From NCBI RefSeq assembly GCF_003336245.1, contig NZ_QPHM01000001.1:2236113-2300112 (forward strand): 64,000 bases of DNA. The letters run 5' to 3'. Under the pieces are notes generated by a model that saw only the letters and a program-made list of their open reading frames with translations, searched no databases and was not told the DNA's origin. Positions 30,939 to 63,515 of the stretch are shown one piece after another. Numbering within the stretch: position 1 is the stretch's first letter; every line of letters begins with the position of its first letter. The translations under genes were made by a program, and so were the position numbers. Source of the DNA: Haloplanus salinus (GTDB lineage Archaea > Halobacteriota > Halobacteria > Halobacteriales > Haloferacaceae).

Positions 30939-31013
30939 TGCTCCGACAGGGATTCGAACCCTGGTCATTGCCGTGAGAGGGCAATATGATTGGCCGGACT
31001 ACACTATCGGAGC
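30939..31013 (-). tRNA. tRNA-Glu (anticodon CTC)
   Basis: A complete cloverleaf on the minus strand. The acceptor GCTCCGA (31013-31007) pairs with TCGGAGC (30946-30940), with discriminator A at 30939. The D-loop has GTCCGGCC. The anticodon stem TTGCC/GGCAA encloses loop CTCTCAC with anticodon CTC at 30977-30975. The T-arm is AGGGTTCGAATCCCT. CCA is not encoded. A TTAAAG TATA-like box lies near 31037. Base composition falls sharply on the right of this gene, so it may mark an integration boundary. Confidence 0.93.
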
Positions 31014-31521
31014 TATCTGGCCCTGCGGGCCATCTCTTTAAGTGCAAGCCGTCTTTCTCGGCGTTCGCATCAGATTCGACGGACTGTGCGTATATAAACT
31101 CTGCTTTTTTGCACCGACAGCAACTTCGACTCGTCGGACGATTTCGGCTTGCTATCAGACAGACTCAACGGAAGGTGGGTGTATTCCACCAGCACACTCC
31201 CTCTACCTCTATTGCACACTAAAACACTTGCCGGAACCCACCCCTAATCTACCCCGTCTCAACTTGTAACTGCCATTGTAAATAGACTCGCCGGACTACT
31301 TACCATAGACTACGTAAGATGGAGAGTGGTCGCTTCTCAACCAGTATAGGAAAACACAATCTAACTACCTATACTACTACTGTATCTCTACCCCCCGCAC
31401 GCGAGGCTACACAGTGCGGTCAACAGGAGAATTACAACCGCTCTTTAGAGCGCCAGCTACTTAAGCTAAGCGTATAATCTCTATAAGTTATTACTATGCT
31501 ATATTAACGCAGAGCCGAAGG
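31014..31521. other. AT-rich intergenic spacer at the chromosome/element junction
   Basis: 508 bases without a convincing gene; short frames here lack haloarchaeal codon bias. Bases 31322-31366 resemble 52790-52834, another non-coding stretch, in about 37 of 45 positions and share the exact core CGCTTCTCAA. A Cys-rich or structured RNA gene was not found. Confidence 0.6.
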
Positions 31522-40431: not shown

Positions 40432-40498
40432 GACAAAGTCGAGGAAATCGCATAGCCGCCGCTGGCTGGTCAGAGCCAACGGGCGGAAGTGGGGAGAA

Positions 40499-50865: not shown

Positions 50866-51006
50866 TTGTGTGATCTCCTGTTGGGAGAAGACGCCGCCAA
50901 AGAACGGCGGCTGGGAGAACCGGGCGTGGTCAGCGCCCGCAAAATCGCAGATCGCAGACCGCAAACACAGAGTGCAAAAGACGAGTCAACGCCCCAAAGG
51001 GGGCAG

Positions 51007-51053
51007 AGCTACACCGGGGAATTGAACCCCGGTCGGGGGAGCCACCCGTAGCT
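51007..51053 (-). ncRNA. tRNA-like minihelix 1
   Basis: Minus strand: acceptor AGCTAC pairs with GTAGCT. Inside are a mini-hairpin GGG-TGGCT-CCC, a CCGA linker, and a T-arm CCGGGG-TTCAATT-CCCCGG. There is no D or anticodon arm. Two bases after the acceptor comes a GC hairpin GCCCC-CTTT-GGGGC (51004-50991). It lies in the leader of the 50865 gene. Confidence 0.7.
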
Positions 51054-51116
51054 ACCATTAAAGAGAACTATCAATGAATGGTACAACTTGTCGGTTAGTG
51101 TGTCTCAGAAAGCCCC

Positions 51117-51169
51117 GAAGCCCCGGAGGAATCGAACCTCCTCTCAGCACCAGCGGCGGATACGGCTTC
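51117..51169 (-). ncRNA. tRNA-like minihelix 2
   Basis: Acceptor GAAGCC pairs with GGCTTC. The T-arm is GGAGG-TTCGATT-CCTCC. About 21 unstructured bases replace the D and anticodon arms. The flanking hairpin is less clear than in the other copies. Confidence 0.55.
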
Positions 51170-51266
51170 GAGTATTGGGGGAAAGTTGAGTTGACTGCGT
51201 GCGCCTGCTTCGCGCAACCGACCGAACGGTGGACAACAGGGGGAAGTGACAACCCCGCGTCCACAG

Positions 51267-51325
51267 GGACAACGACTGGAGTCGAACCAGTCAGAGCGCC
51301 AAGTAGCTCCGCCGCCTTTTTGTCC
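51267..51325 (-). ncRNA. tRNA-like minihelix 3
   Basis: Acceptor GGACAAA/GTTGTCC (6 of 7 pairs). T-arm GACTGG-TTCGACT-CCAGTC. The 26-base middle may form one small hairpin (GAGC/GCTC). A long hairpin GTGGAC...GTCCAC (51264-51229) follows 2 bases later. A TATA-like ATATTATAG lies just upstream at 51330-51338. Confidence 0.6.
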
Positions 51326-51453
51326 TCACTATAATATTCGTTGGAAACCTGTTAAAGCTGTCGGAAATTCAGGCGTCTGACCGGATTTCAGTAGCACGGC
51401 CACCGCAACTTTATCCCATCAGCCAGCAATTATAGTTCGTAGATTGCCAGTAA

Positions 51454-52035
51454 ATGACAGAGAGAGAACTTAGGCCGTACAAAATATGCCCTTTCTGTGG
51501 CGAACGGGTATTCGCCAGAGGACTCTACCTTCACGTTCTCAATAGCCCCGACGAGGCGCACGGGGGAGAAGACGCGGTTCCCGAGGGATTCAGCGCAAGC
51601 GACGTTGACTCCGAGGGACAAGCGGCCAAAGATGTTACTGACGAATCCGACGACCAAGCTGGTCTGAATATAATGTGCAAGTTCTGTGGGGAAGTGTACC
51701 CCGACAAAGAAGAACTTGGCAAACACCTCTCGATGATGAAACGGATTGACGATCCGTCTCACCCGGAGAAAACAACCCCGGACACCGCTGGATTGAGTGT
51801 CCCCGAGAACACGTCTCCGATTCGTCGATTTTCGAGGTTTCAGGGTAGCGCCGATAATCCAATGGCGCAATTTCGCAGAGAACGCGCCGCCAGTCAAACG
51901 CCCGACGAACTCAAATTCGTCCCACTTGAGGAGATTTTGGAACTCCGAAATTGGGCAAGAGAGCGAGAGGGGCAATCGGGAGCATACGTAAAGGTCGCTG
52001 AACAGCTCGATGAACTCGTTAGGAAGTATGGTTGA
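51454..52035 (+). CDS. Two-finger C2H2-like zinc-finger protein
   Basis: 193 residues. Finger 1 KICPFCGERVFARGLYLHVLN and finger 2 MCKFCGEVYPDKEELGKHLSM are separated by an acidic linker. The C-terminus has a helix FVPLEEILELRNWAREREG. Probably a DNA-binding regulator. A CTTTATCC box at 51409-51416 would give a short leader. It is one of few rightward genes in the element and faces away from the leader of the 50865 gene. Confidence 0.8.
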   Translation: MTERELRPYKICPFCGERVFARGLYLHVLNSPDEAHGGEDAVPEGFSASDVDSEGQAAKDVTDESDDQAGLNIMCKFCGEVYPDKEELGKHLSMMKRIDDPSHPEKTTPDTAGLSVPENTSPIRRFSRFQGSADNPMAQFRRERAASQTPDELKFVPLEEILELRNWAREREGQSGAYVKVAEQLDELVRKYG

Positions 52036-52084
52036 GAAGCGCGGCGACTCCCCAACCTCACCGCTACCGCCGCCGCCGAGGCCG

Positions 52085-52600
52085 TCACACTCCTAACTCC
52101 TCCTTCAGGGTCTTGCTGTCGTAGTCCCTGTTTTCTGTCCACGACGAGAGCTGTTCAGCCATCTTGACGATCTCCACGATCCCCTCGGCGGTCTCGTGTT
52201 CGTCGTCTTCGAGGAGCGGGTAGATGCCGTCAAGAAACAGCTCCATATCTGGCGCTAAGGCCAGCGAATATGGGCCGATGATCTCACAGATTCGAGCTAT
52301 GTCGTCGCGGCGGGAGATCGAGACGATGAAGTTCCCGGCGTCTGTCTCCCGAACGGTTGAATAAATCCCGTTCTGGATACACCAGTCGTCGAAAAACGCC
52401 ATTACGATCTCCCGGTTAATCCGCACCCGGAAGTCGGTGTGTATCCCGAATCCGTGGCGGGTCTGTTGATGCTGTTGGGCGCTTACACTTAGGCTTCCTC
52501 GGGTGTCGAGAAGGCCGGCGATGTAAGCGGTAGTCTCCGCGCTTTCTTCGTCTACCATTGGTTGTCGTAACCATTTGAAGGGGGATATTTGTATCTTCAT
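52085..52600 (-). CDS. LAGLIDADG homing-endonuclease-like protein
   Basis: 171 residues. AYIAGLLDTRGSLSVSA matches the LAGLIDADG dodecapeptide (YLAGLxDxxGS) with Asp present. A second repeat could be SLALAPDMELFLDGIYPLL, which is degenerate. A single motif in 171 residues suggests a homodimer. It converges with the zinc-finger gene, 49 bases between stops. Confidence 0.75.
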   Translation of the reverse strand: MKIQISPFKWLRQPMVDEESAETTAYIAGLLDTRGSLSVSAQQHQQTRHGFGIHTDFRVRINREIVMAFFDDWCIQNGIYSTVRETDAGNFIVSISRRDDIARICEIIGPYSLALAPDMELFLDGIYPLLEDDEHETAEGIVEIVKMAEQLSSWTENRDYDSKTLKEELGV

Positions 52601-52917
52601 TGCTGCCTATGCTACTCAGATTCGGTCAGACTCCTTAATTTCAGATAGCTTTATATTCTCTTAGAGCGTTTATTAAGTAGAGAACAACCGTGAGAGGGTT
52701 CTCTGGTTAGATACCTTCTGAGAGTCTACTCTACTTAGACTACTCTATCTGGTACTACTCTACCTATACTACATACTCCGTCCTATATTGAGAGAGATCG
52801 CTTCTCAACCAATACAGGAGAACATACTCTAACTGTAATAGTATAGCTGGAGTACGTCAGCCTGTAATATATCTGCCGAGAGACGCCTCTCTCAATTCCG
52901 TTGTCTCCTATCTACCA
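52601..52917. promoter_or_regulatory. AT-rich divergent promoter region
   Basis: 317 bases without a gene, with a run of TACTCTAC/TACTACTC-like steps at 52722-52782. Bases 52790-52834 resemble 31322-31366. A TAATATAT box at 52866-52873 can drive the gene at 52918. Confidence 0.5.
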
Positions 52918-53391
52918 ATGCCGTTTGACGAATTATCTGAAGAACCACTTGTTTCGCCGGACACTGAGAACGCTACCAAGTTCCACCCGTCCGAAGCACC
53001 CTCCGAACAGAAATCGTACTGGAAGCGCCTCGGTGGCTACAACTCTGGTGTCTACAACGGTTACTGGGAGGACTCAACTGAAATCCGCCGCCTCGACAAT
53101 CTCTCTGTCTTCGACTCGATCAGCTCGCAACTTGAGCTGACCCCATACCAGAAGCGAACTGGTCGGATGCACTTCGACGATCTGAACATCCGCGAGATTG
53201 GATACGGCGTCGAGCTGATCTCCTTCGCTCTCTGCGCCATCGTTGCCGAGAAAGACGGGCGTCGATACTCCCCGAAGGCCAACCCCGAGAACACCGACAC
53301 CGAGTTTGTCCGAATCGCTGACTCTCTCGACTTCCGACCCCGCCTCATTGAGCGGGCCATTTGTGCCGTCCGGGGTGAGCTGGATGCGTAG
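52918..53391 (+). CDS. Hypothetical protein, possibly cyclin-fold
   Basis: 157 residues. The second half is helical (SISSQLELTPYQKRTGRMHFDDLNIREIGYGVELISFALCAIVAEKDGRR, then RLIERAICAVRGELDA), resembling a single cyclin-like repeat of TFIIB proteins. It has no zinc ribbon. This is a weak resemblance. It overlaps the ERCC4 nuclease start by 8 bases, so the two are co-transcribed. Confidence 0.65.
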   Translation: MPFDELSEEPLVSPDTENATKFHPSEAPSEQKSYWKRLGGYNSGVYNGYWEDSTEIRRLDNLSVFDSISSQLELTPYQKRTGRMHFDDLNIREIGYGVELISFALCAIVAEKDGRRYSPKANPENTDTEFVRIADSLDFRPRLIERAICAVRGELDA

Positions 53392-53839
53392 AGCCGACTT
53401 CCGAATTATTACCGACACCAGAGAAAAGCTCCCTTACGACTTCACCACCCACCGCGGTCCCGTCGACACCGAGGCGCTGGAGACCGGCGATTACTCCGTC
53501 GAGGGGTTCGAGGACGTATTCGCTGTCGAGCGCAAGTCGCTGTCCGATCTAATTCGGACGGTGACGTGGGGCCGCAAGAACTTCGAGGCCGAGCTGGACC
53601 GGGCCAACTCCCTCGCTGAGTTCGTCGTCGTTATTGAGGCGTATCCCGACGATCTCGCCAACCACATTGAGGAATACGGGCGGAAGGTCCACCCAAATTC
53701 CATCTTCGGCTCGCTGAAAGCGTGGGAAAAATACCGCGGCGTCCCGTTCTACTGGTGCGGCTCCCGCGAGAACGCCGAACAGGTGACGCTCGACCTTCTC
53801 ACCGAGTGGCACGATACCTACGGGGTGTCATTCTCGTAG
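53384..53839 (+). CDS. ERCC4-type (XPF/MUS81) nuclease
   Basis: 151 residues from the ATG at 53384 (MRRADFRIITDTREKLPYDF). The catalytic signature is ITDTREK...ALETGDYSVEGFEDVFAVERKSLSDLIRTV, i.e. the D, GDY and ERKxxxD of the XPF nuclease fold. It lacks the (HhH)2 and helicase domains, as in phage and plasmid versions. It would cut branched DNA. Its 3' end overlaps the convergent zinc-ribbon gene by 12 bases. Confidence 0.88.
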   Translation: MRRADFRIITDTREKLPYDFTTHRGPVDTEALETGDYSVEGFEDVFAVERKSLSDLIRTVTWGRKNFEAELDRANSLAEFVVVIEAYPDDLANHIEEYGRKVHPNSIFGSLKAWEKYRGVPFYWCGSRENAEQVTLDLLTEWHDTYGVSFS

Positions 53840-53989
53840 ATATTGCATCTGGATTGCTATTTCTTTCGCACACGACCGGCAGGCAAACTCTTTGCGACTG
53901 CCGGGAGGGTGAATACTCCAGCCATCTTCGGTTTGATACAGAGGCATACCATTTATCCGAGGGCCACCACAGAACGCGCACGGCGTCAT
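53828..53989 (-). CDS. Tiny zinc-ribbon protein (53 residues)
   Basis: MTPCAFCGGPRINGMPLYQTEDGW, then FACRSCAKEI: two CxxC pairs. The start overlaps the stop of the 54147 gene (ATGA). Confidence 0.68.
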   Translation of the reverse strand: MTPCAFCGGPRINGMPLYQTEDGWSIHPPGSRKEFACRSCAKEIAIQMQYLRE

Positions 53990-54147
53990 TTCCCCGCCCC
54001 CATCGTGTAGTACGGGTGTCGACCGGCGCACACCCGTTCGAGGAAGTCAGCGGCACACGGATCGCAGAACGCCAGCTCCTTCTCCTCGTCGACAATCACC
54101 GCTCGATCCCCACACGTCTTGCACCAGTCGAAATTTAGGTCACTCAT
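53986..54147 (-). CDS. Tiny zinc-ribbon protein (53 residues)
   Basis: MSDLNFDWCKTCGDRAVIVDEEKELAFCDPCAADFLERVCAGRHP...: CxxC at residues 9-12 and 28-31. It probably binds one zinc. It lies one base after the stop of the membrane-protein gene, in a leftward run. Confidence 0.68.
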   Translation of the reverse strand: MSDLNFDWCKTCGDRAVIVDEEKELAFCDPCAADFLERVCAGRHPYYTMGAGK

Positions 54148-54148
54148 T

Positions 54149-54400
54149 CTAGTTTTTACCGGGGCTAACCAGAACCATCAGGAACCCGCCAATCGTGACG
54201 ATGATTCCAAATAGGATGTTCGAGCCACGACTTTGATTCGGTTCCGTGACTGTGCCTTCGACACACGTTGGACCCCACCCGTAAGGATCGTCAACGCACG
54301 AAACAGCGGTTCGAGTGATCTCGGTTGGACTCAGTATGCCCGCCGTCAAAATCAACAGGCCAACGATCAGCACGACCCCGCCGACGGCCTGCAAGTTCAT
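54149..54400 (-). CDS. Small membrane protein with two helices
   Basis: 83 residues from the ATG at 54400: MNLQAVGGVVLIVGLLILTAGIL, a loop with two Cys (AVSCVDDPYGWGPTCVEG), and ILFGIIVTIGGFLMVLVS. The two loop Cys may form an external disulfide. Start overlaps the stop of the 54492 gene. Confidence 0.7.
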   Translation of the reverse strand: MNLQAVGGVVLIVGLLILTAGILSPTEITRTAVSCVDDPYGWGPTCVEGTVTEPNQSRGSNILFGIIVTIGGFLMVLVSPGKN

Positions 54401-54492
54401 CGAGCCACCTCGTGGAGTCTGTTTCGCGTGCCAGCACCACATCGCTTGCACGGCTCCGATTCTTCTACTGTCACGATCTTCTTGAGTTGCAT
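54397..54492 (-). CDS. Micro-protein with one CxxC (31 residues)
   Basis: MQLKKIVTVEESEPCKRCGAGTRNRLHEVAR. It is very short; support comes from the ATGA overlap with the next gene and the tRNA-like/hairpin leader directly before it (6 bases). Confidence 0.5.
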   Translation of the reverse strand: MQLKKIVTVEESEPCKRCGAGTRNRLHEVAR

Positions 54493-54518
54493 AATGCGCC
54501 CCCAATCTCCGGGGGCAG

Positions 54519-54566
54519 GCTCCCGGCGGCTGTCGAGGCCGCTGGTGCGCTACGTGCGCCGGGAGC
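54519..54566 (-). ncRNA. tRNA-like minihelix 4
   Basis: Acceptor GCTCCCG pairs perfectly with CGGGAGC. Inside are a mini-hairpin GCGC-ACGTA-GCGC, an ACCA linker, and a T-arm GCGGC-CTCGACA-GCCGC. After two bases comes hairpin GCCCCC-GGAGATT-GGGGGC (54516-54498) and then the ATG at 54492. Confidence 0.75.
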
Positions 54567-54626
54567 GGAAGGGGAAGAAGGATGGTCGGCTACGAGCCGG
54601 AGGCCGTCACCGGACCTCGTAGCGCC

Positions 54627-55868
54627 TTACTCGGCGTTGCCTTCCTCCATCGCCATCATCAATTTGTTAATGCGTTCCTCGCGGGCCTCGAACTCCTCCT
54701 TACGCTCACGGAGGCTCTGGCTGTACCGCTCGACGGTCGCCAGCCCGCGCTTCTGGCTGAAGGACAGCTCGCCGTTGTTCTGGATTTCAGCACGGCGACG
54801 CTCGCGCCGCTCGTACTCGGCCTCGATTACTTCCATCGTCTCGGCGGGGTTGTCGAGAATCCGCCGGGCCGTGAAGTAGTAATCTTCGAGCTTGCCTTCC
54901 TCAGCGCGACCACGGAACGAGTGGGTCAGCGCGTAGGTCAGCCCGGAGTGAAGCACCCACTTGTTCAGGCGGTTGCGAGACCCATCCTCGGTCTGCCCAC
55001 GCGCCTTCGCGTCTTGGGCCGCCGCGTTCGCCAGATACTCGGGGACGCCGAGCATCTGGTAATACTCGGAGACGGAGTAGGGAAGCTCAGCGAAGTCCAT
55101 CTCGATTTCGAGAGCTTCGCTGATTAGCTCAAGCAGGTAGTCGCGGATTGCGCCCATCTGATCGAGCAGGTCCATAATCCAGTCGTGGTACTCCGAGGGC
55201 TGGCCGACGTGCCGCCGGCTCAGCTTCTCAGTCAGCGCCCGGAAGCTGTTATCGCATTGCGTGTCGTAGGCGAATCCCCGAGCGTACAGCGCCATTGAGC
55301 CGTCGAAGCTGTTGCCCGTCTGAATCCCCACGTAGAGAGGCTGGCGGCCACCCGGCGGGTGAACCAGCTCGTCGGTGAGGTAAATGTCGCCGTGGACCTT
55401 CCGCCCGTAGTCGTAGACGCGAAACTCCCCGAGAATCGCGTCGTTGAGATCGGCGTCCTCGAAGGCATCGGCCCACGGAGACCACGCCTCAACGGGGTTG
55501 ATGATGGTGTATTGGTTGCTCGACACCGCATACACCATCGCGTCGCCGTTCTCAATGTCTCCAGCCGTGAATGCCTCCGCCAACTCCGGGTTGACAACCG
55601 CGTTCGCCGTGCTAATCGGAATGTTGTGCTCCCGACCGGGATTGAACGGGTTAGTCACCTCGATCTCGCTCGTGGTCGCTGTTGGGAGCTGGCGGATCGC
55701 GTCGGAGAAGGACAGCTCCGGTCGGTCGTCGAGGCCGAGTTTCCCGAGGATGCTCTCGGGCATATCCATCTGGAAGTTGTCGAAGGCAGTCACACCCGCG
55801 AAGGGAATCGTGTAGTATTCGCTCAGCGTTACACCGGCACCGCTCTCTGCATCGTTGGTCTCGCTCAT
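54627..55868 (-). CDS. Hypothetical protein, DUF932-like
   Basis: 413 residues. LYVGIQTGNSFDGSMALYARGFAYDTQCDNSF and the flanking beta-rich region recall DUF932 phage/plasmid proteins, judged by pattern only. The C-terminus is a long charged helix (AEYERRERRRAEIQNNGELSFSQKRGLATVERYSQSLRERKEEFEAREERINKL), probably coiled coil. The leader has CCTGAACC 4 bases before the ATG, a GC hairpin and tRNA-like element 5. Confidence 0.65.
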   Translation of the reverse strand: MSETNDAESGAGVTLSEYYTIPFAGVTAFDNFQMDMPESILGKLGLDDRPELSFSDAIRQLPTATTSEIEVTNPFNPGREHNIPISTANAVVNPELAEAFTAGDIENGDAMVYAVSSNQYTIINPVEAWSPWADAFEDADLNDAILGEFRVYDYGRKVHGDIYLTDELVHPPGGRQPLYVGIQTGNSFDGSMALYARGFAYDTQCDNSFRALTEKLSRRHVGQPSEYHDWIMDLLDQMGAIRDYLLELISEALEIEMDFAELPYSVSEYYQMLGVPEYLANAAAQDAKARGQTEDGSRNRLNKWVLHSGLTYALTHSFRGRAEEGKLEDYYFTARRILDNPAETMEVIEAEYERRERRRAEIQNNGELSFSQKRGLATVERYSQSLRERKEEFEAREERINKLMMAMEEGNAE

Positions 55869-55872
55869 ATCG

Positions 55873-55880
55873 GGTTCAGG
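55873..55880 (-). promoter_or_regulatory. CCTGAACC motif before the 55868 gene
   Basis: Exact 8-mer between the leader hairpin CCCCC-AACGGTA-GGGGG (55899-55883) and the ATG. Confidence 0.55.
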
Positions 55881-55900
55881 TTCCCCCTACCGTTGGGGGA

Positions 55901-55951
55901 AGCGTCGCCGGGGAGTCGAACCCCGGTATGGTGGCCCTACCACTCGGCGCT
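55901..55951 (-). ncRNA. tRNA-like minihelix 5
   Basis: Acceptor AGCGCCG/CGACGCT (6 of 7 pairs), a mini-hairpin GTGG-TAGGG-CCAC, a 4-base linker CATA, and a T-arm CCGGGG-TTCGACT-CCCCGG. One discriminator-like T follows, then the GC hairpin. The 5' part overlaps the last five codons of the zinc-ribbon gene, whose stop TAG lies in the mini-loop. Confidence 0.75.
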
Positions 55952-56077
55952 ACCAAAAACGTCGTCGCACCCGGAACACCACAACTGAATTAATCCTGCT
56001 TCGTAGTCTCGTACCTCGCTTTTATCGACGCGGTTCAAGTGGCCGCACTCCGGGCACGACACCTCGATAATTTTCAT
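55937..56077 (-). CDS. Tiny zinc-ribbon protein (46 residues)
   Basis: MKIIEVSCPECGHLNRVDKSEVRDY, then LIQLWCSGCDDVFGSAEW: two CxxC pairs, typical of a single zinc ribbon. Its 3' end is built into tRNA-like element 5. Its ATG directly follows the stop of the membrane peptide gene. Confidence 0.7.
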   Translation of the reverse strand: MKIIEVSCPECGHLNRVDKSEVRDYEAGLIQLWCSGCDDVFGSAEW

Positions 56078-56185
56078 CTACCCACACCCTCCGCCTACTC
56101 CGAGCAGAAACGAGAGGTAGGAATAGATGAGAACCGCGCCTCCCAACCAGAGGGTGAGCCGCAGGTTCTCAACGTCTACAGCCAT
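56078..56185 (-). CDS. Membrane micro-protein (35 residues)
   Basis: MAVDVENLRLTLWLGGAVLIYSYLSFLLGVGGGCG: one hydrophobic helix. It overlaps the stop of the gene upstream by one base and abuts the next start. Small but in a coupled gene run. Confidence 0.55.
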   Translation of the reverse strand: MAVDVENLRLTLWLGGAVLIYSYLSFLLGVGGGCG

Positions 56186-56433
56186 CAGTCCGCCTGCCGT
56201 TCCACGAGTTGGAGCGACTCCCGCCGGTTGTTTCGCGTCACCGCCGGGTCGTTAAAGCGGTCAATCTCGCCGTTCGCCCACTTGACGACGGTCGGGATGA
56301 ACAGGTCGGCCCAATCCGTGTAGGCCAGCACTTCGTAGTGCTCGCCTTCCGACACATCGCTCGCCATCATCGGGTGCATCCCGGCGGCCTTCGCGTTGTG
56401 AATCCGCCCAGCAATGCTAATGTCGTCGCTCAT
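56185..56433 (-). CDS. Hypothetical 82-residue protein
   Basis: MSDDISIAGRIHNAKAAGMHPMMASDVSEGEHYEVLAYTDWADLFIPTVVKWANGEIDRFNDP... with acidic N-terminus. No family recognised. It lies 3 bases after the previous gene. Confidence 0.65.
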   Translation of the reverse strand: MSDDISIAGRIHNAKAAGMHPMMASDVSEGEHYEVLAYTDWADLFIPTVVKWANGEIDRFNDPAVTRNNRRESLQLVERQAD

Positions 56434-56436
56434 CGC

Positions 56437-56718
56437 CTATCGCCCCTTCTGATCCGCCTTCTCCAGATTCTCGATTGTGTCCTCCAGATTGTCGTCGAGC
56501 GCCCGAGCGGATTTTGCGCCCAAACACGCCAGCCGCGTAATCGCGGAGAGGTGGAGAATCGCCTGCCGAACCTTCGCGTCTTTGTGCGTGTCTCCGAGCG
56601 CATACCGAGCGGATTCCGCGGCGTCGATGATGGTCTCGAACTCGGCCTCCATCTCCCCGACGAGCCGCTGTCGGTCAATGGTCAGCTCGTCGGCCAGAAT
56701 CCGGGGCTTGAAACTCAT
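56437..56718 (-). CDS. Hypothetical 93-residue helical protein
   Basis: MSFKPRILADELTIDRQRLVGEMEAEFETIIDAAESARYALGDTHKDAKVRQAILHLSAITRLACLGAKSARALDDNLEDTIENLEKAD: almost entirely helical, possibly a small bundle. Overlaps the 56852 gene by 4 bases. Confidence 0.67.
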   Translation of the reverse strand: MSFKPRILADELTIDRQRLVGEMEAEFETIIDAAESARYALGDTHKDAKVRQAILHLSAITRLACLGAKSARALDDNLEDTIENLEKADQKGR

Positions 56719-56852
56719 CGCGCCCTCCGCCCGCTCTCGTGGTTCCGTGAGATTCGGAGCGCCGCGTGGTAGCGAGATGACCAGTAGTCGGTCGGGTAGA
56801 GGTTCTTCAGCGTGCTGTTCGTCACCGATTGGTAGTTGGTCATTTTCCGCAT
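56715..56852 (-). CDS. Hypothetical 45-residue protein
   Basis: MRKMTNYQSVTNSTLKNLYPTDYWSSRYHAALRISRNHESGRRAR; a second ATG is at 56843. CTGAACCC precedes the first ATG by 2 bases, with a GC hairpin and tRNA-like element 6 upstream, which supports this as a real gene start. Confidence 0.6.
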   Translation of the reverse strand: MRKMTNYQSVTNSTLKNLYPTDYWSSRYHAALRISRNHESGRRAR

Positions 56853-56883
56853 AGGGTTCAGTCCAGCCCCCCTTCCGGGGGCA

Positions 56884-56926
56884 ATCCGATTCGGGGAGTC
56901 GAACCCCGAGGCCGCCGCTATCGGAT
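56884..56926 (-). ncRNA. tRNA-like minihelix 6
   Basis: Acceptor ATCCGAT pairs perfectly with ATCGGAT. The T-arm is CGGGG-TTCGACT-CCCCG, with an 11-base link in place of the D and anticodon arms. One T follows, then hairpin GCCCCC-GGAAG-GGGGGC (56882-56866), then CTGAACCC and an ATG. Confidence 0.78.
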
Positions 56927-56946
56927 AGGCCGAGAGAGGGCCGAGA

Positions 56947-57219
56947 TCAGCAGGAGACTTCTTCAGCGAAGTAGTGACTCACGTTGTAATACTCAATGTC
57001 ACCAGCTTCGAGCTGAGCCGTCGTCACTCGTTGCGCCCGAGCGAAAGCGTCGAACGGGCTGGTGGCAACGACTTGTTCAACGACGCGAAGAATCCCGCGC
57101 TCCTCGCTGATTACCTCGACGGAGTTTGCGTGAACCAGCTCCTCGTAGGCCGCCTCGATATTTTCAGGCGGAAGACGCACGTCCAGACTCGCCTCGTATA
57201 TTACGGTCTTCCTCGTCAT
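56947..57219 (-). CDS. Hypothetical 90-residue protein
   Basis: MTRKTVIYEASLDVRLPPENIEAAYEELVHANSVEVISEERGILRVVEQVVATSPFDAFARAQRV... an alpha/beta pattern. No family recognised. Start overlaps the stop of the gene upstream. Confidence 0.67.
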   Translation of the reverse strand: MTRKTVIYEASLDVRLPPENIEAAYEELVHANSVEVISEERGILRVVEQVVATSPFDAFARAQRVTTAQLEAGDIEYYNVSHYFAEEVSC

Positions 57220-57626
57220 AGGTGATCTACCTCAAAGAGCGCACTTCCGAAGCCGTCGTTATCTCCGGGGTAGAACGCCAGAGACCACCCCATCTCGTAG
57301 TAGTCTGTGTCGTATTCCGGCGGGTGCCAGTACGATCCTCGCGACGTTCGGTAGGTCACACCCACGTCGAAGCGGCCAAGGAACCGGATTCCCCAACCGC
57401 GTTCTCGATCAGTAATGGTCTCATAGTCCTCGAAGTCGTCTCTCAGCTCGTAGACCGGAGGAACCGACTCGTTCTCAGCTCCGTCGGGAAGCGCCATCTG
57501 AACATCTTCGTTTCGTAGGACTTCCAGGGCGAGTGAGAACGCCACAGTAGCGATAGTCTCCAGCGGAATTTCTACGGTCTCTACTTCGGTCTCGGATTCA
57601 GATTCAGGTTCAGGGGTTCCACTCAT
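57216..57626 (-). CDS. Hypothetical 136-residue protein
   Basis: ATG at 57626 (MSGTPEPESESETEVETVEIPLETIATVAFSLALEVL), chosen over a GTG three codons upstream. Middle and end are beta-like (WGIRFLGRFDVGVTYRTSRGSYWHPPEYDTDYYEMGWSLAFYPGDN). Its IATVAFSLALEVLRNEDVQMALPDG is loosely like the small paralogues at 44123-44538. Confidence 0.66.
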   Translation of the reverse strand: MSGTPEPESESETEVETVEIPLETIATVAFSLALEVLRNEDVQMALPDGAENESVPPVYELRDDFEDYETITDRERGWGIRFLGRFDVGVTYRTSRGSYWHPPEYDTDYYEMGWSLAFYPGDNDGFGSALFEVDHL

Positions 57627-57631
57627 TTGTA

Positions 57632-57868
57632 TCACTTTACGCCGCCCAACAGGCGGAATCGCTCACCGAGGAGCGGGAGTTCGTTTTCAGCCGGTACACG
57701 AACAACGCCGATTACGTCGTCCGGGCTAACGTACACGCCGCGGTCGCCGGACTGAATGTGTACGCGCTTCGGGCCGACCGAGCGCACGGTGCCGTCAACT
57801 TTCTCGCCGTCGTAGCAGAACCGGACAATGAGACCCGGCTTCAGCTCAACGAGGTTGTCGTCGCTCAT
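57632..57868 (-). CDS. Hypothetical 78-residue beta protein
   Basis: ATG at 57868 (MSDDNLVELKPGLIVRFCYDGEKVDGTVRSVGPKRVHIQSGDRGVYVSPDDVIGVVRVP). The strand pattern suggests an SH3- or KOW-like barrel. One base after the hydratase stop, so co-expressed with it. Confidence 0.68.
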   Translation of the reverse strand: MSDDNLVELKPGLIVRFCYDGEKVDGTVRSVGPKRVHIQSGDRGVYVSPDDVIGVVRVPAENELPLLGERFRLLGGVK

Positions 57869-57869
57869 T

Positions 57870-58301
57870 TCATTCTCCGGCTTCAGCCAGCGGATCGAGG
57901 AGAATCGTGGCGTCACCAGCGATAACGCGGTCGCCGTTCTCAGTTACTACACGAACGTCACACGAGTACGCTCCGCCACCGAGATCGACGACGATCTCCG
58001 CGACGCCGGTCAGCATCTCTCCAAACGAGACAGGCTTCAGGAAATCGAGGTGCTGATCGAGGAACACGACAACCGAATTGTGCGTTCCGAATTTCGCCAG
58101 CGCCGCCGAGATCAGCGAGGCAGTCAGCGCCCCGTGAACGATGTTTCCGCTGAAACGCGAGCGCCGCCCGGTCGATGGGTGGAGGTGAAGCGGGTTACGG
58201 TCGCCGGAAAGATCAGCGAATAGCTGGACTTCTGGTAGGTCGAAGCGGGCGCTGTGTGTTCGGGTCTGTCCTTCTTCTAAGTGGTCTACTGCAAGGTTCA
58301 T
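57870..58301 (-). CDS. MaoC-like hydratase (hot-dog fold)
   Basis: 143 residues from the ATG at 58301 (MNLAVDHLEEGQTRTHSARFDLPEVQLFADLSGDRNPLHLHPS). The R-specific hydratase motif is F-ADLSGDRNPLHL...FSGNIVHGALTASLISAAL, with the catalytic Asp and His (DxNPxH). Such enzymes hydrate enoyl-CoA. Its presence among replicon genes is odd. A variant motif CCTGACCC lies 6 bases before the ATG. Confidence 0.88.
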   Translation of the reverse strand: MNLAVDHLEEGQTRTHSARFDLPEVQLFADLSGDRNPLHLHPSTGRRSRFSGNIVHGALTASLISAALAKFGTHNSVVVFLDQHLDFLKPVSFGEMLTGVAEIVVDLGGGAYSCDVRVVTENGDRVIAGDATILLDPLAEAGE

Positions 58302-58344
58302 TTTGGGGTCAGGTTTTAGGTCATTGATCGGTCGACGGGCGGTA

Positions 58345-58590
58345 CTACTCGGCGTCCAAGTCGTCGACACGTCGGAGGTTCAGGTTACGAACTCCGAGAT
58401 CGACAGCACGGACGGTGAATAACTCGTGAGCAATTTCGACGTGGCTAACCCCCTCGACTAATTCAGGATCAGTCAGCTCGCCAACGGTCAATCGCTCCGA
58501 CGTATCCAGCGCAGTTGTCAAACACGACACCACCAACGCGAGCGATTCGCGGTTGATGTGGGGAGAATCGTGTTCTGGTACTCTACTCAT
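58345..58590 (-). CDS. Hypothetical 81-residue protein
   Basis: MSRVPEHDSPHINRESLALVVSCLTTALDTSERLTVGELTDPELVEGVSHVEIAHELFTVRAVDLGVRNLNLRRVDDLDAE. No family recognised. The leader holds a GC hairpin and tRNA-like element 7. Confidence 0.65.
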   Translation of the reverse strand: MSRVPEHDSPHINRESLALVVSCLTTALDTSERLTVGELTDPELVEGVSHVEIAHELFTVRAVDLGVRNLNLRRVDDLDAE

Positions 58591-58636
58591 AGCTGTAGGT
58601 TCATCCTCATTCCCCGGTTGATACTCGCGTGGGGAA

Positions 58637-58680
58637 AACCGAGGGCGGGGCGCGAATCCCGCCGGTAACGCTACTCAGTC
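58637..58680 (-). ncRNA. tRNA-like minihelix 7
   Basis: Acceptor GACTGAG/CTCGGTT (7 pairs, two G-U), 10-base link TAGCGTTACC, T-arm GGCGGG-ATTCGCGC-CCCGCC. Two T follow, then a CCCC...GGGG hairpin with a 15-base loop (58634-58612). It precedes the 58590 gene. Confidence 0.7.
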
Positions 58681-58691
58681 AGCCGTTCAGA

Positions 58692-60020
58692 TCAGTCCCA
58701 CCGACGACGGCCACCCTGCCGGGCCAGCGACGCGACTTCCCGACCGTGGGTAACGACGCGGTGCCACCGCTCACGGAGGTTAATCATCGGGTGGTCGCCC
58801 CCGGTGTGGCGCACCGTGCCCCGGACGTACCCACCGATCACCGTCTCGCCGTCGTCGTCGTAGATCGGGGCGAAATCACGCGGAACGTGTCGACCGAGAA
58901 GCGCCGATGCCGGGCTGTGGTTGAATCCAAACGAGAGCGGGAGAATCTGACCGTCGTAGTAGGTCACGCCGGTATCGGTGTCTCGAATCCCGAGTCCAGC
59001 TCCGACCTTCGTTGGCTCGTAGTTGCCCGCTGGGAAGCTCGCCGGGGCCTGCTCCACGTCGTCAACGGTCTTGGTGAGAACGCCCTGAGAGAGCGGCTTG
59101 AAGATAGGGACGTCTTCTGGCTCGAAGTCCTCGTCCATCGGGATGAAGAACCACTCGCCCTGCCGGATAATCTGGTTGCCCCGGCGTAGCGCCCACAGCG
59201 ACGGGCGGCCTTCGTAGACGCTCATCCCTTCGGCTTCGGCTTCGCGCACTTCCGTCGGAGTCAGCAGATCGAGTGCGTCCTCCATCACCCGAATGTTCTC
59301 CATCTCCTCGGGGTCTAGGCGGAATGCGAACCGGCCAGTATTTTCGCGAGTCACGTTCGCCGTCTTATCCCGACCGATGACGTAGCCGAATCCCTGAGAA
59401 AACTCGACGAGCTTCACGCCACTTCCCGCTCGAATCCCGATAATATCTTCGAGGCGTTCGCCGCGCTGGAGGAAGCCGTCGAGCGAGGTGAGCGGAAGTT
59501 CGCCGTGCGCTCGGGGAGCTGGCGAAACGTAGGAGTAGCGACCGACCGCCCAATCCTCGTCGTTGTTAATTACGAGGCCGTTGTGGGTGCGGATCGCCGC
59601 GATAGTCCGGTGGTGCATAAGCCGCCCGGAGCCGTCGACGTTCTGCCGGCCCATCATCGACTGCCCGGAGTTCCACATCGCCGCGTTGTCCCCCCTCGTC
59701 ATTTCGTGGGCCGGGAATTTCATCTCGCGCCACGCCTTCGCCACCTCAGTTTGGCTGGCGTAGACAGCCTTCCCGCTCACTTCGTAGTCAGGGTGAATCA
59801 GCTTCCAGCCGTAGGCCGTCTTTGCCCACTTTCGGTCGGGCTGAATTTCGTCGAGGAGGGCGATTGCGTCGCCAATTCCCTCGGGAAGCTCGGCGGCGTA
59901 GAAGGCTTCGAGGTCTTCAGCAGTTGGATGTTTGGGGCCAGAGAGATCGAGACGAATTTCCACGTCGTTGTTGGTCTGGTTGTTGTCGTTGCCGTAGCTA
60001 CCGCTGGTCTGTTGGTACAT
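58692..60020 (-). CDS. Hypothetical protein of the element (442 residues)
   Basis: ATG at 60020 (MYQQTSGSYGNDNNQTNNDVEIRLDLSGP). The upstream TTG frame NPEPETK is the CCTGAACC leader. The middle is beta-rich (HRTIAAIRTHNGLVINNDEDWAVGRYSYVSPAP, GSGVKLVEFSQGFGYVIGRDKTANV), and the end Arg-rich (RWHRVVTHGREVASLARQGGRRRWD). Its short Asn/Asp/Gly-rich N-terminus resembles that of the 50865 gene. No family recognised; a virion or DNA-packaging role cannot be excluded. Confidence 0.72.
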   Translation of the reverse strand: MYQQTSGSYGNDNNQTNNDVEIRLDLSGPKHPTAEDLEAFYAAELPEGIGDAIALLDEIQPDRKWAKTAYGWKLIHPDYEVSGKAVYASQTEVAKAWREMKFPAHEMTRGDNAAMWNSGQSMMGRQNVDGSGRLMHHRTIAAIRTHNGLVINNDEDWAVGRYSYVSPAPRAHGELPLTSLDGFLQRGERLEDIIGIRAGSGVKLVEFSQGFGYVIGRDKTANVTRENTGRFAFRLDPEEMENIRVMEDALDLLTPTEVREAEAEGMSVYEGRPSLWALRRGNQIIRQGEWFFIPMDEDFEPEDVPIFKPLSQGVLTKTVDDVEQAPASFPAGNYEPTKVGAGLGIRDTDTGVTYYDGQILPLSFGFNHSPASALLGRHVPRDFAPIYDDDGETVIGGYVRGTVRHTGGDHPMINLRERWHRVVTHGREVASLARQGGRRRWD

Positions 60021-60030
60021 TTTGGTTTCA

Positions 60031-60038
60031 GGTTCAGG
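60031..60038 (-). promoter_or_regulatory. CCTGAACC motif before the 60020 gene
   Basis: Exact 8-mer, with a near copy CCTGAAACC right after it, 10 bases from the ATG. Confidence 0.5.
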
Positions 60039-60101
60039 GTTCAACCGGCCACTCGAAGCCGGCGCTCGGTTCTCAATCCTTCCCCCTGCTTTCTCGGGGG
60101 A

Positions 60102-60144
60102 TTCGTCGTCGGGGAGTCGAACCCCTGTATTTCCACTCGACGTT
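60102..60144 (-). ncRNA. tRNA-like minihelix 8
   Basis: Acceptor AACGTCG/CGACGAA (5 of 7 pairs), 12-base link, T-arm GGGG-TTCGACT-CCCC. One T follows, then hairpin CCCCC-GAGAAAGCA-GGGGG (60100-60082), then the 60020 gene. Confidence 0.6.
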
Positions 60145-60316
60145 AGAAATTCTCAGAGGGATATTTGGGGCTTAGAAAGCCCTCCTTATGTCAGAGGCAC
60201 CTATCCCCCTGTGAACGCTATTAATTTTCTAACAAATAAAACCCAATATTAATTAAGAAAATGAATACAACAGCCAATATCGAGGCTTGATGGCTCCTAT
60301 GGGATGACTCACCGGT
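60145..60316 (-). promoter_or_regulatory. AT-rich promoter region for the 60020 gene
   Basis: 172 AT-rich bases without a gene. On the minus strand GGGTTTTATTTG (60233-60244) is TATA-like and would start a transcript that includes tRNA-like element 8. Confidence 0.45.
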
Positions 60317-60457
60317 TTATAACACTTGCTCAAGTTCGATCAGTTCACCGCTGTAGATCAAGTACGCTGTTGCTGGGCGAGAGCTGTCGTAGAGGATAGT
60401 CTGGCCCTTTCTCAGCGGCTTCGAGCTGAGCTTCGTAACTTCTGGTACTTCATCCAT
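60317..60457 (-). CDS. Hypothetical 46-residue protein
   Basis: MDEVPEVTKLSSKPLRKGQTILYDSSRPATAYLIYSGELIELEQVL, a small beta protein. The ATG overlaps the stop of the 60689 gene, supporting translation. Confidence 0.62.
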   Translation of the reverse strand: MDEVPEVTKLSSKPLRKGQTILYDSSRPATAYLIYSGELIELEQVL

Positions 60458-60689
60458 CGCTGTTTTCTCCGAGGTACATCGCTGAACGCCCGTCTTTCAG
60501 GGAGTAGATTTGCCACACGTAGACGTCTCCCCGTGAATCCCTGATGCGTTCCATCAGCGAGAACGGCATATCCGCATACTCTCCTTCAATGAGGAGCAGG
60601 TCGCGATAGCGTTCATCGTATTCCATCCGGCGAATCCGCGAGCTGTTCTTGAAGTCGCTCACCAGTTGGTTCAGGAGTTTTCGCCCCAT
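60450..60689 (-). CDS. Hypothetical 79-residue protein
   Basis: ATG at 60689: MGRKLLNQLVSDFKNSSRIRRMEYDERYRDLLLIEGEYADMPFSLMERIRDSRGDVYVWQIYSLKDGRSAMYLG. Overlaps the upstream stop by one base. No family recognised. Confidence 0.66.
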   Translation of the reverse strand: MGRKLLNQLVSDFKNSSRIRRMEYDERYRDLLLIEGEYADMPFSLMERIRDSRGDVYVWQIYSLKDGRSAMYLGENSDG

Positions 60690-61090
60690 CAGATCATCAC
60701 CTCGGCGTCGTCGTCGAGATCGGGGAAATCCAGGCGAACCTGAATCGTCCCGGTGCCTTCGTGGAAGTAGCGGATGAACAGATCGCCCACTGTGAATCCG
60801 GTTTTGGCGGCGGCATCGAGGAACTTGAATGCCGACGTATTTCGCCCGTTGAGGTACAGGTGAATCCGGGCGTTGTGTTCGTTTTCGGGATTGCACAACA
60901 TTACCGCTCCCCGGTCGATATATTCCGCGCCGTCGTCGGGCGTAATCGGCTCGACCGTATCCTCGAATTGGTTGAGAAGCGCCACCTCCAACTTGCGGGC
61001 CTCGAAGGCTTCCAGAAGATTCCCGAAAATTTGTCGCCGCGTCTTTTCGCCGTCGCTCATAGCCGTGTCGGTCGTGGTCGTGGTCGTCAT
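60689..61090 (-). CDS. Hypothetical 133-residue protein
   Basis: MTTTTTTDTAMSDGEKTRRQIFGNLLEAFEARKLEVALLNQFEDTVEPIT... then AKTGFTVGDLFIRYFHEGTGTIQVRLDFPDLDDDAEVMI. The start could also be the ATG ten codons in. CCTGAACC lies 5 bases before the first ATG. Function unknown. Confidence 0.68.
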   Translation of the reverse strand: MTTTTTTDTAMSDGEKTRRQIFGNLLEAFEARKLEVALLNQFEDTVEPITPDDGAEYIDRGAVMLCNPENEHNARIHLYLNGRNTSAFKFLDAAAKTGFTVGDLFIRYFHEGTGTIQVRLDFPDLDDDAEVMI

Positions 61091-61095
61091 TTTTG

Positions 61096-61103
61096 GGTTC
61101 AGG
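61096..61103 (-). promoter_or_regulatory. CCTGAACC motif before the 61090 gene
   Basis: Exact 8-mer (CCTGAACCCAAAAATG). Confidence 0.5.
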
Positions 61104-61127
61104 TTTCGGGTTTGATTTCAGCTCGGT

Positions 61128-61508
61128 TCAGTAGTCGTCGAACAGCTCGAAGTCCTCGATCTCCTCGGCGTCCTGAATTTCCTCGACGTGCAGTCCGATC
61201 TCAACCTCGGGGAAATCCATCAAGCCGACAGAGCCGTGAACAAACGAGGCGTCGGTCACGATCTCCTCGATTGAAAGCCCCTGATCTCGGAGGTACGCAA
61301 CCGTCCCCGGCAATTCGCAGTCCGGCAGTCCGTCGACGCCGAAGGATTCTGCCCAATCGGAGGCGGAGTAATCCAGAACGCGCCGGGCAAATTCAGAGTC
61401 GGTCGCAACCAGCTCGAAGAAATCGCGGGCACTCAACTTCCCGCCGAAGATTTCAGAGACGTATTCAGTCGTCGGTTCCGCAGATTCGGTGTTGGGCACG
61501 TTTGCCAT
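61128..61508 (-). CDS. Hypothetical acidic protein (126 residues)
   Basis: MANVPNTESAEPTTEYVSEIFGGKLSARDFFELVATDSEFARRVLDYSASDWAESFG..., ending EIQDAEEIEDFELFDDY. Very acidic. The leader is the hairpin CCCC-GAAA-GGGG (a GNRA tetraloop, 61532-61521) 12 bases before the ATG, itself right after tRNA-like element 9. Confidence 0.68.
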   Translation of the reverse strand: MANVPNTESAEPTTEYVSEIFGGKLSARDFFELVATDSEFARRVLDYSASDWAESFGVDGLPDCELPGTVAYLRDQGLSIEEIVTDASFVHGSVGLMDFPEVEIGLHVEEIQDAEEIEDFELFDDY

Positions 61509-61532
61509 TTTCTATTCCTTCCCCTTTCGGGG

Positions 61533-61578
61533 AGGCCCCGCGGCGGGAGTCGAACCCGCCGCGTATCAATCGGCCCCT
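61533..61578 (-). ncRNA. tRNA-like minihelix 9
   Basis: Strong T-arm GCGGCGGG-TTCGACT-CCCGCCGC. The acceptor AGGGGCC/GGGGCCT pairs in 5 of 7 positions with a G-G internal loop. 9-base link GATTGATAC. The GNRA hairpin CCCC-GAAA-GGGG starts immediately after. Confidence 0.65.
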
Positions 61579-61677
61579 GATATTTCGGAGCCGGGGTTGC
61601 CTTTCGGGGCGGAGTTTCCTTTCGGGCACTCAACCAATCATAACGTCTACCGAAGTCGTGGCCTGCAATCAGGCCAA

Positions 61678-61719
61678 GCCCCGACCGGGGTGTGAATCCC
61701 GGCGGTCACTTTTCGGGGC
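61678..61719 (-). ncRNA. tRNA-like minihelix 10
   Basis: Acceptor GCCCCGA pairs perfectly with TCGGGGC. 10-base link AAAGTGACCG, T-arm CCGGG-ATTCACAC-CCCGG. Two T follow, then hairpin GGCCTG-ATTG-CAGGCC (61675-61660). It stands in tandem with element 9 before the 61508 gene. Confidence 0.78.
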
Positions 61720-61748
61720 GAGATATATTCCGGTGAGACTATCGCCGC

Positions 61749-61898
61749 TTAGCGGAGCCAGCCCGGATCGGAGCGGGCATTGTCCTGTTTGTCGTAGAAC
61801 GCTTCCGCAATTGCCAGCTCAGTTTCGTGCTGGAGGTTCCACGTCATTTCTTCGCCGTAAATCGCCTTCGCGTCAGCCGCTTCAAGTTCGTAGCTCAT
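61749..61898 (-). CDS. Hypothetical 49-residue protein
   Basis: MSYELEAADAKAIYGEEMTWNLQHETELAIAEAFYDKQDNARSDPGWLR, a single amphipathic helix by appearance. Lies between the 62776 gene and the tandem tRNA-like elements. Confidence 0.6.
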   Translation of the reverse strand: MSYELEAADAKAIYGEEMTWNLQHETELAIAEAFYDKQDNARSDPGWLR

Positions 61899-61948
61899 TG
61901 GTCTGTTGGGTTTTGGTCTTAGGATTCGGGTTGATGATCGGTCGGTTC

Positions 61949-62776
61949 TTATTCGAGGTTCTTCAGGGCTTCCGCGGCGGCTTTGATTGCGTCGGCGGCG
62001 GCGGTGATCGCCTCGGCCTTCGCCATTTCAGCGGCGGCGGTCTCGTTGGTCGTGTCGGTCGTCTTGGGTTCAGGGGTAGGTTCGGGTTCGGTCTCCTCGA
62101 ACATCGTTTCGTCCGTCTCGATTTCGGCCTGCTGTTGATGTCGGAGGCAGAAGCCGTGGTCTTTGGCTTCCGCGGTGCAGTCTTGGCCGGCCTTTTTACC
62201 CGATAGGTACACGCCGTTGCAGGTGTCGACGGGTTCGGGTTCGGGTTCCGGTTCCGGTTCCGGTTCGGGGGAGGGTTCGGGCGCGGCGTTCTCAACCGAT
62301 CCCCCGAGGATTTCGTCTTTCACGATGCTTGGCAGTTTGAAGGCTTCAGCGACGAACAGCCGGTCGGAGTAGGTGTCGGTGATTCCGAGGGCTTTGATTT
62401 CGTCGTCGGTGATTTCGCGGGTTTCAACCGTCGTCGGGACTGGGTGGGCCAATTTGTAGGCCCGAAGATCGCCCTGATTCAGCGCCCGGAAGTTGTCTTG
62501 AATTTGGCGCTTCGCCCGCCGGGTTCGCATCGCCAGCCGCCCGACTTGCTGTTTCGCGCCCTTTCCGTCGACCGACTTCGCCAGCCGGTTGAGTAGCCAT
62601 TCGGTGCCACACACAACGTTGTATGCGTCGCCAGCCGGGACGGCTTCAGGGAATTTCGCCTGAGCCTTTTTGAGCTGGACGTTTTCACGGGTTTGTTCGT
62701 CGTGGACGTTCGGGGAAGCCGCGGGTTCGGCGTTCTCGGTCGTTTCAACAGCCAGCAGGTTGTCGTATTTGGACAT
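61949..62776 (-). CDS. Hypothetical protein with zinc motif and EP-rich linker (275 residues)
   Basis: MSKYDNLLAVETTENAEPAAS..., a helical domain (QQVGRLAMRTRRAKRQIQDNFRALNQGDLRAYKLA), and a linker APEPSPEPEPEPEPEPEPVD. Then CNGVYLSGKKAGQDCTAEAKDHGFCLRH, a C-C-C-H zinc site like that in the 44531-44806 product, and an Ala-rich helix (AEMAKAEAITAAADAIKAAAEALKNLE). MSKY is shared with the start of the 50865 gene. It is the first leftward gene of the element. Confidence 0.7.
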   Translation of the reverse strand: MSKYDNLLAVETTENAEPAASPNVHDEQTRENVQLKKAQAKFPEAVPAGDAYNVVCGTEWLLNRLAKSVDGKGAKQQVGRLAMRTRRAKRQIQDNFRALNQGDLRAYKLAHPVPTTVETREITDDEIKALGITDTYSDRLFVAEAFKLPSIVKDEILGGSVENAAPEPSPEPEPEPEPEPEPVDTCNGVYLSGKKAGQDCTAEAKDHGFCLRHQQQAEIETDETMFEETEPEPTPEPKTTDTTNETAAAEMAKAEAITAAADAIKAAAEALKNLE

Positions 62777-62841
62777 TAGTCACTTCTTGGGGTTTGGTCG
62801 TTCGGTGGTACGTCGGTCGTTTCCCCTGATTTTTCGGGGAA

Positions 62842-62884
62842 GCCCGCCGGGGGAATTGAACCCCCGTAAGTCCATTACGGGCCG
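62842..62884 (-). ncRNA. tRNA-like minihelix 11
   Basis: Acceptor GGCCCGT/GCGGGCT (7 pairs, G-U at both ends), 10-base link AATGGACTTA, T-arm CGGGGG-TTCAATT-CCCCCG. One T follows, then hairpin CCCC-GAAAAATCA-GGGG (62840-62824). It lies in the leader of the 62776 gene. Confidence 0.76.
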
Positions 62885-63515
62885 ATCCAGCCAGTCTCGA
62901 ATTGGTTGCGCGGTCGTCAATTGGTCGCAACCGTCCGGGGCCGTGGCGCTTTGATTATGGCGTTTCACTAATCGCGGGTTTAGCTTCGCGTAGGGCTTTA
63001 CGTCGCGTGTTACACTTCCCGTCGCCCGTTCGACTTGCCCCGGCCAACCCGGATTCACGTCGCGGCGCTTATTGGGAATTACTCACGCGCCCGGTGGTCG
63101 ATCCCACCGTCGCCCCTCCTAATGCTGATTTAACTCGAAAATCGCTGTTTCCGTTCGGTTCGGGATTATTGACTCACGCGCTTTTGAACGTCTTACTGAG
63201 CTTGAACCTACTAAGGCTTCGAGAAATCTCCCGCTTTGGCGTATGTAGGCTCGGCGTATTCCAGCCGTTTTGATCCGACGACTCCCCCGGTGGGAAACCG
63301 TCCCACCGAGATATTCGCCGGCTTACTTCCCCGCCCGTCCTACGCGGGGGTTTTGTTCGGGGGCTTTTCACCCCGAACGCCACTCCGATTAGCTCGGTCG
63401 TCGTCCGGGGAGCCACCCCGGCCCGAGTTTCCCGAGCCACCGTCCCCCGCGGGGGCCTCGTCCGGTAAAGTCAACCGTTGCCCCCGAGGGGATAGCTGAG
63501 CAGATGTTGGGAGAT

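Follow-up and report, generated by a model that had tools for sequence, protein, structure and literature searches.

What a series of short tRNA-like structures without an anticodon arm might do when they recur along one strand of a virus-derived region is the question raised by the 64,000-nucleotide stretch of the Haloplanus salinus genome analysed here (C1:2236113-2300112 of a 3.55-Mb haloarchaeal genome; hereafter the window). A sequence-only reading had proposed eleven minihelices on the minus strand, each made up of an acceptor stem and a T-arm. A T-arm and an acceptor-like stem are indeed present at all eleven places, with uneven quality, while that reading overlooked the hairpin that follows the minihelix, the position at gene starts and the viral family. 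It is probable, in our judgement, that the minihelices are viral t-elements which let tRNase Z, and perhaps also RNase P, divide long transcripts into mRNAs that carry a 5' hairpin. The elements and their hairpins are listed below with the associated open reading frames (ORFs); R1 and R2 are the covariance models of the minihelix and of the composite unit.

62842..62882, minus strand: t-element 1, acceptor GCCCGT/GCGGGC, T-stem CGGGGG/CCCCCG, loop TTCAATT; R1 33.7 bits
62821..62841, minus strand: 5' hairpin after t-element 1, TTCCCC...GGGGAA; precedes ORF 61949-62776
61678..61719, minus strand: t-element 2, acceptor GCCCCG/CGGGGC, 8-nt T-loop ATTCACAC; weaker
61659..61677, minus strand: hairpin after t-element 2, TGGCCTG-ATTG-CAGGCCA
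61533..61578, minus strand: t-element 3, T-arm GCGGCGGG/CCCGCCGC sure, acceptor ambiguous
~61515-61533, minus strand: hairpin after t-element 3, CCCCGAAAGGGG; then ORF 61128-61508
60103..60143, minus strand: t-element 4, 5-bp acceptor CGTCG/CGACG (six pairs, GCGTCG/CGACGC, in the IMG/VR relative)
60082..60102, minus strand: hairpin after t-element 4, TCCCCC...GGGGGA; ATG of the ORF at ~60020; composite R2 41.8 bits
58637..58681, minus strand: t-element 5, acceptor GACTGAG/CTCGGTT with two G-U pairs, 8-nt loop ATTCGCGC
following t-element 5, minus strand: hairpin TTCCCC...GGGGAA; then ORF 58345-58590
56885..56925, minus strand: t-element 6, acceptor TCCGAT/ATCGGA; R1 31.6 bits
56866..56882, minus strand: hairpin after t-element 6, GCCCCC-GGAAG-GGGGGC, GCCCCCGGAAGGGGGGC; small ORF from 56852
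55902..55950, minus strand: t-element 7, acceptor GCGCCG/CGACGC with one mismatch; an upstream 46-codon ORF stops within its spacer
55881..55901, minus strand: hairpin after t-element 7, TTCCCCC...GGGGGAA, CCCCCAACGGTAGGGGG; then ORF 54627-55868
54519..54566, minus strand: t-element 8, acceptor GCTCCCG/CGGGAGC, loop CTCGACA
54498..54516, minus strand: hairpin after t-element 8, GCCCCC...GGGGGC; small CxxC ORF from 54492
51268..51324, minus strand: t-element 9, acceptor GACAA/TTGTC, T-stem GACTGG/CCAGTC; leader region; partial R1 match
51117..51169, minus strand: t-element 10, acceptor GAAGCC/GGCTTC; leader region; without clear hairpin
51008..51052, minus strand: t-element 11, acceptor GCTACG/TGTAGC
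50990..51005, minus strand: hairpin after t-element 11, GCCCCC...GGGGC; then the first replication-operon ORF (49870-~50865)

The cleanest copies are those at 62842, 56885, 54519 and 51008; those at 58637 and 61678 have in common an unusual 8-nt T-loop, ATTCRCRC, and are both missed by R1.

Chance pairing in GC-rich DNA must be considered before any function is assigned to such structures, given that the GC content is ~60% and that R1 also has a few matches inside host ORFs, which were treated as chance. A strict descriptor (5-bp T-stem with a YTCRANN loop, >=6 bp in the acceptor, one mismatch tolerated there) finds seven matches on the minus strand and none on the plus strand of positions 50,901-63,000 (12.1 kb), compared with a mean of 0.085 matches and a maximum of 3 in 400 dinucleotide shuffles searched on both strands. 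This excess, the 7:0 strand bias and the conservation of the elements across virus genera lead us to reject chance, to which we attach next to no probability. The four window sites that fall outside the strict descriptor are real but looser, with a mismatch, a longer loop or an ambiguous acceptor. R1, which was trained on 16 copies, all viral, using an alignment in a 12-bp register, recovers nine of the eleven window elements at E<=1 in 451 kb, several of these being training sequences. A further regularity lies in the spacer that replaces the missing arms: GG occupies spacer positions 4-5 in 26 of the 32 short-spacer elements, viral and host together (shuffled mean 4.2, maximum 13). This GG is probably a miniature D-loop, and its placement suggests that it could dock on the T-loop in the manner of the tRNA elbow.

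The minihelix is usually only half of a composite unit, in which a hairpin begins 0-4 nt, usually 1-3 nt, past the acceptor and is followed by a start codon. The search descriptor made no use of the hairpin, whose score averages 15.3 in 39 viral elements compared with 4.2 in shuffles and reaches p<0.05 against shuffles in 33 of them; a strong hairpin (score >=14) lies 0-4 nt past the acceptor in 30 of the 39, whereas just 4-6% of randomly chosen positions in these genomes reach that score. The start codon is often 30-35 nt downstream of the acceptor end, and in many copies the hairpin ends up 10-14 nt ahead of it. The elements thus in general stand directly upstream of the putative released RNA, three of those in the window lying in a leader. 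In HF2 the annotated gene gaps 2876-2978 and 4347-4445 are occupied by elements, three upstream stop codons in HRTV-27 finish at the element edge or one base inside it, and in HRTV-27 and the IMG/VR relative several finish exactly at the acceptor. The annotated starts of HJTV-2 gp016 (record 72198-72563), HRTV-27 gp109 and HRTV-25 gp106 extend into a t-element; the true start of each is probably the ATG past the hairpin.

Searching viruses and haloarchaeal genomes with a covariance model, a check that the sequence-only reading had proposed, yields R1 matches both in other viruses and at host 5S rRNA genes. In a scan of 20 halovirus records, matches were found in all ten isolated Hafunaviridae and in the IMG/VR relative, as well as in two Saparoviridae, HHTV-2 (E 6e-7) and HCTV-2 (E 3e-6); none were found in Hardycor1, HATV-2 or HRTV-28 in the same scan. 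Weak matches in phiCh1, BJ1, HCTV-1 and HGTV-1 were not counted as t-elements, those in BJ1 resembling ordinary tRNAs. The composite as a whole recurs with compensatory changes in several virus genera (HF1/HF2, HSTV-2, HSTV-4, HJTV-2, HRTV-7, -21, -25 and -27, HHTV-2 and HCTV-2), while an IMG/VR pattern scan for it returned 11 contigs, mostly uninformative.

Between orthologous copies each of the three helices has undergone compensatory change, so that the claim of a selected RNA structure, in which pairing is kept as the sequence changes, stands. In the element at 4375 the acceptor GCTCCG/CGGAGC of HF2 corresponds to GCCCCG/CGGGGC in HSTV-4 (U-A to C-G), and the hairpin GGTAGC/GCTACC to GGTAGT/ACTACC; the hairpins of the 2905 element are CAGTAGC/GCTACTG, ACGATAGC/GCTATCGT and TCGATAGC/GCTATCGA in HF2, HJTV-2 and HRTV-21, respectively; and the T-stem of the window element at 51008, CCGGGG/CCCCGG, is CCGAGG/CCTCGG in IMG/VR (G-C to A-U). 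Pair counts over all copies agree with this covariation but are biased, because the training sequences were chosen for pairing and, in one alignment, spacers and loops were trimmed. The same changes bear on whether the elements represent tRNA genes in decay or what integration and recombination left behind of attachment sites. Such remnants do exist in the HF1 group, whose viruses have a truncated tRNA-Thr (attP) and a tRNA-Arg (PMC7230728, PMC8707807), and viral spacers range from ~10 nt to full tRNA length; the stems, however, are kept paired by compensatory change while their sequence diverges, the actual attachment site of the provirus lies elsewhere, in tRNA-Glu at 30970-31014, and most good copies are coupled to a hairpin. 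We therefore regard this origin as very unlikely.

Whole tRNA genes also occur at equivalent sites, tRNA-Gln in HSTV-2 and tRNA-Tyr with a hairpin in HF2, and in HF2 a hammerhead ribozyme is predicted at 10292-10371, its end lying 12 nt short of the DNA helicase gene; the hammerhead and the whole tRNA genes may represent other ways of cutting the transcript at a gene start.

If the elements are t-elements, truncated tRNA mimics composed of an acceptor stem, a GG mini D-loop and a T-arm would sit within long viral transcripts, where host tRNase Z would bind the T-arm and acceptor and cut after the discriminator base. The mRNA downstream would then take the form 5'-U-hairpin-short leader-AUG, its hairpin shielding the new 5'-phosphate end, while the t-element would either be kept as the structured 3' end of the upstream RNA or be cut by RNase P on its 5' side as well. 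Polycistronic viral transcripts would in this way be divided into separate mRNAs, and with each protected by its own hairpin the genes of one operon could be expressed at different levels. It is known that CC(A) past the discriminator acts as an anti-determinant for tRNase Z. In line with what a substrate of this enzyme should show, 34 of 38 elements, viral and host together, have T at position 74, and none has CC at 74-75. Northern blots of haloarchaeal virus RNAs show species of 0.5-9 kb, for which processing has been proposed (PMC8707807). For the splitting of transcripts of tens of kb into such RNAs, the elements offer a concrete, testable signal and enzyme.

The released minihelices might instead be the product themselves, as small stable tRNA-mimic RNAs that serve, for example, as decoys for tRNA-directed nucleases, modification enzymes or synthetases. 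Processing would free an RNA of 40-60 nt, much as mascRNA is freed from MALAT1, and the T-arm is well conserved. Acceptor sequences, on the other hand, vary freely between copies, so that no single identity is kept, and such a product would not account for a hairpin and a start codon at a fixed place downstream; we think this a poor candidate.

Several observations weigh against the t-element reading, and one of them also favours a different account, in which the elements are features of the DNA or of the leader of a primary transcript: promoter-linked inverted repeats in or close to which transcription begins, as in other halovirus intergenic repeats. Primer extension in HF2 mapped a 5' end to T-4384, which was assigned to a promoter, an alpha motif lying upstream, and HF2 intergenic repeats are proven promoters (PMC8707807); genes of HGTV-1 likewise have a motif of TATA plus inverted repeat (PMC3950731). 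T-4384 lies inside the HF2 element 4375-4414 and not at its 3' edge. It could reflect a promoter that overlaps this copy, other processing or reverse-transcriptase arrest. Invariant T-loop residues, the GG of the mini D-loop and compensatory changes are nevertheless features of RNA, the t-element of the 5S rRNA has the same fold, and what precedes each start codon is a GC-rich stem in which no TATA box, to be expected ~26 nt ahead of the start in a promoter repeat of the HF2 kind, is evident by eye, even if one HF2 element holds a mapped 5' end. On balance a promoter role seems unlikely.

The remaining difficulties for the t-element interpretation concern position and quality. Upstream stop codons that finish exactly at an acceptor suggest that RNase P may act as well, but at window 55902 and in HRTV-7 the element itself contains the stop codon, which an RNase P cut would remove, so that it is safer to assume that tRNase Z cuts alone, as has been reported for 5S. 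The elements at 58637, 61678 and 61533 are imperfect; those at 51008-51324 are in a leader and not between genes; and a hairpin that adjoins the acceptor could impede tRNase Z. These three leader elements stand in tandem within ~320 nt (51008-51324) ahead of the replication operon, at the place where a tRNA-Gln gene is found in HSTV-2 and its relatives.

Run against the entire host genome, R1 locates, outside the provirus, an element 2-3 nt ahead of each of the two 5S rRNA genes (25.5 and 25.3 bits, E ~0.02 per genome), and it also matches the 5S elements of relatives. R1 and R2 together detect the unit of t-element, hairpin and ATG before secreted-protein genes, in this genome and in several haloarchaeal genera; these genes encode Tat-like or SipW-cognate signal peptides (TIGR04088, Peptidase_M73), and one has weak similarity, below the curated cut-off, to Taf fimbrial proteins. 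One such host locus is C1:2769500-2771700, and host composites sometimes, if not often, stand between tandem paralogues. R2 at E<=1e-4 over 146 genomes of the order gave two matches, a threshold that was too strict. Unequal mRNA levels are a plausible requirement in fimbrial operons, in agreement with the proposed role in mRNA splitting. With slightly better than even confidence we propose that the t-element with its 5' hairpin is a general haloarchaeal cassette for mRNA maturation, used by the host between fimbrial or SipW-type genes, and that tailed viruses multiplied it into a serial punctuation of operons, in which mRNA stability would be set gene by gene through the tRNA-processing enzymes. 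The host mRNA elements may overlap with the Haloferax t-elements reportedly predicted in Holzle 2012, and a search for earlier work on the fimbrial operons gave nothing relevant.

The elements belong to a provirus of ~60 kb and Hafunaviridae type, related to HSTV-2, HRTV-25, HRTV-27, HF2 and others. What the sequence-only reading had called a haloarchaeal replicon is a provirus integrated in the main chromosome at tRNA-Glu. GC content falls from ~70% to ~59% across the tRNA-Glu gene (30939-31013), and the two copies of the repeat are the borders of the provirus:

30970..31014, minus strand: attachment site, 44/45 bp of tRNA-Glu repeated at C1 ~2,326,771

Its genes include a family B DNA polymerase, a primase, a phage exonuclease and an ERCC4-type nuclease ORF placed as in the relatives and identified from position and sequence by eye; the polymerase (window 36927-40436) contains an intein with a LAGLIDADG domain. 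No complete cloverleaf tRNA with an anticodon was found in the element region with ARAGORN and the Rfam tRNA model, which returned tRNA-Glu and one doubtful match outside it; the elements themselves have no anticodon arm, in keeping with the earlier statement that they cannot decode. Elsewhere in the genome, at least 8 tRNA genes lie within ~1.4 kb on a 409-kb contig (C3:160000-164000) and resemble a viral or plasmid tRNA array.

The elements have the acceptor stem and the tRNA-type T-arm and T-loop of a t-element and lack the anticodon arm. That no described family has this form, as first supposed, does not hold, because R1 matches the 5S t-element and the best Rfam match, below threshold, is to the metazoan mascRNA; on the same two grounds the viral elements belong with t-elements on structure. 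According to PMC4326828 and PMC3296008, which cite Holzle 2008 and 2012 for the Haloferax 5S t-element, tRNase Z forms the 5' end of the 5S rRNA of Haloferax volcanii at a tRNA-like structure directly upstream, and a CRISPR RNA flanked by t-elements is released in vivo through cuts in these by RNase P and tRNase Z. The 5S element shares with the viral ones an acceptor, a 6-bp T-arm, a spacer of ~11 nt with GG and a place directly 5' of the released RNA, whereas the viral copies are serial, stand before mRNAs, are followed by a hairpin and are only putatively cleaved. In a permissive Rfam scan the best weak matches at three window elements were to mascRNA-menRNA (RF01684), at 25.3, 22.4 and 20.0 bits, below its gathering cut-off of 42.5 bits. 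mascRNA, a substrate of RNase P and RNase Z at the 3' end of MALAT1, is with menRNA likewise tRNA-like, reduced in the D and anticodon regions and cut by both enzymes, but these RNAs come from the 3' ends of metazoan long non-coding RNAs. The class I/II repeats of HF2 are also repeated intergenic sequences of Hafunaviridae, but they are not tRNA-like, have TATA boxes and have been proven to act as promoters (PMC8707807). The t-element itself is already known, but no description of its serial viral use, coupled to a 5' hairpin, was found in the literature searched, most subscription journals being outside its scope. The nearest parallel in organization is the tRNA punctuation of mitochondria, where tRNA-shaped signals between genes also mark mRNA ends, although mitochondria use whole functional tRNAs and complete their mRNAs by polyadenylation. 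If the proposed cleavage takes place, it would extend mitochondrial-style punctuation, by means of a minimal tRNA mimic, to archaeal viruses and host operons, and would give archaeal genetics a compact module for cutting RNA.

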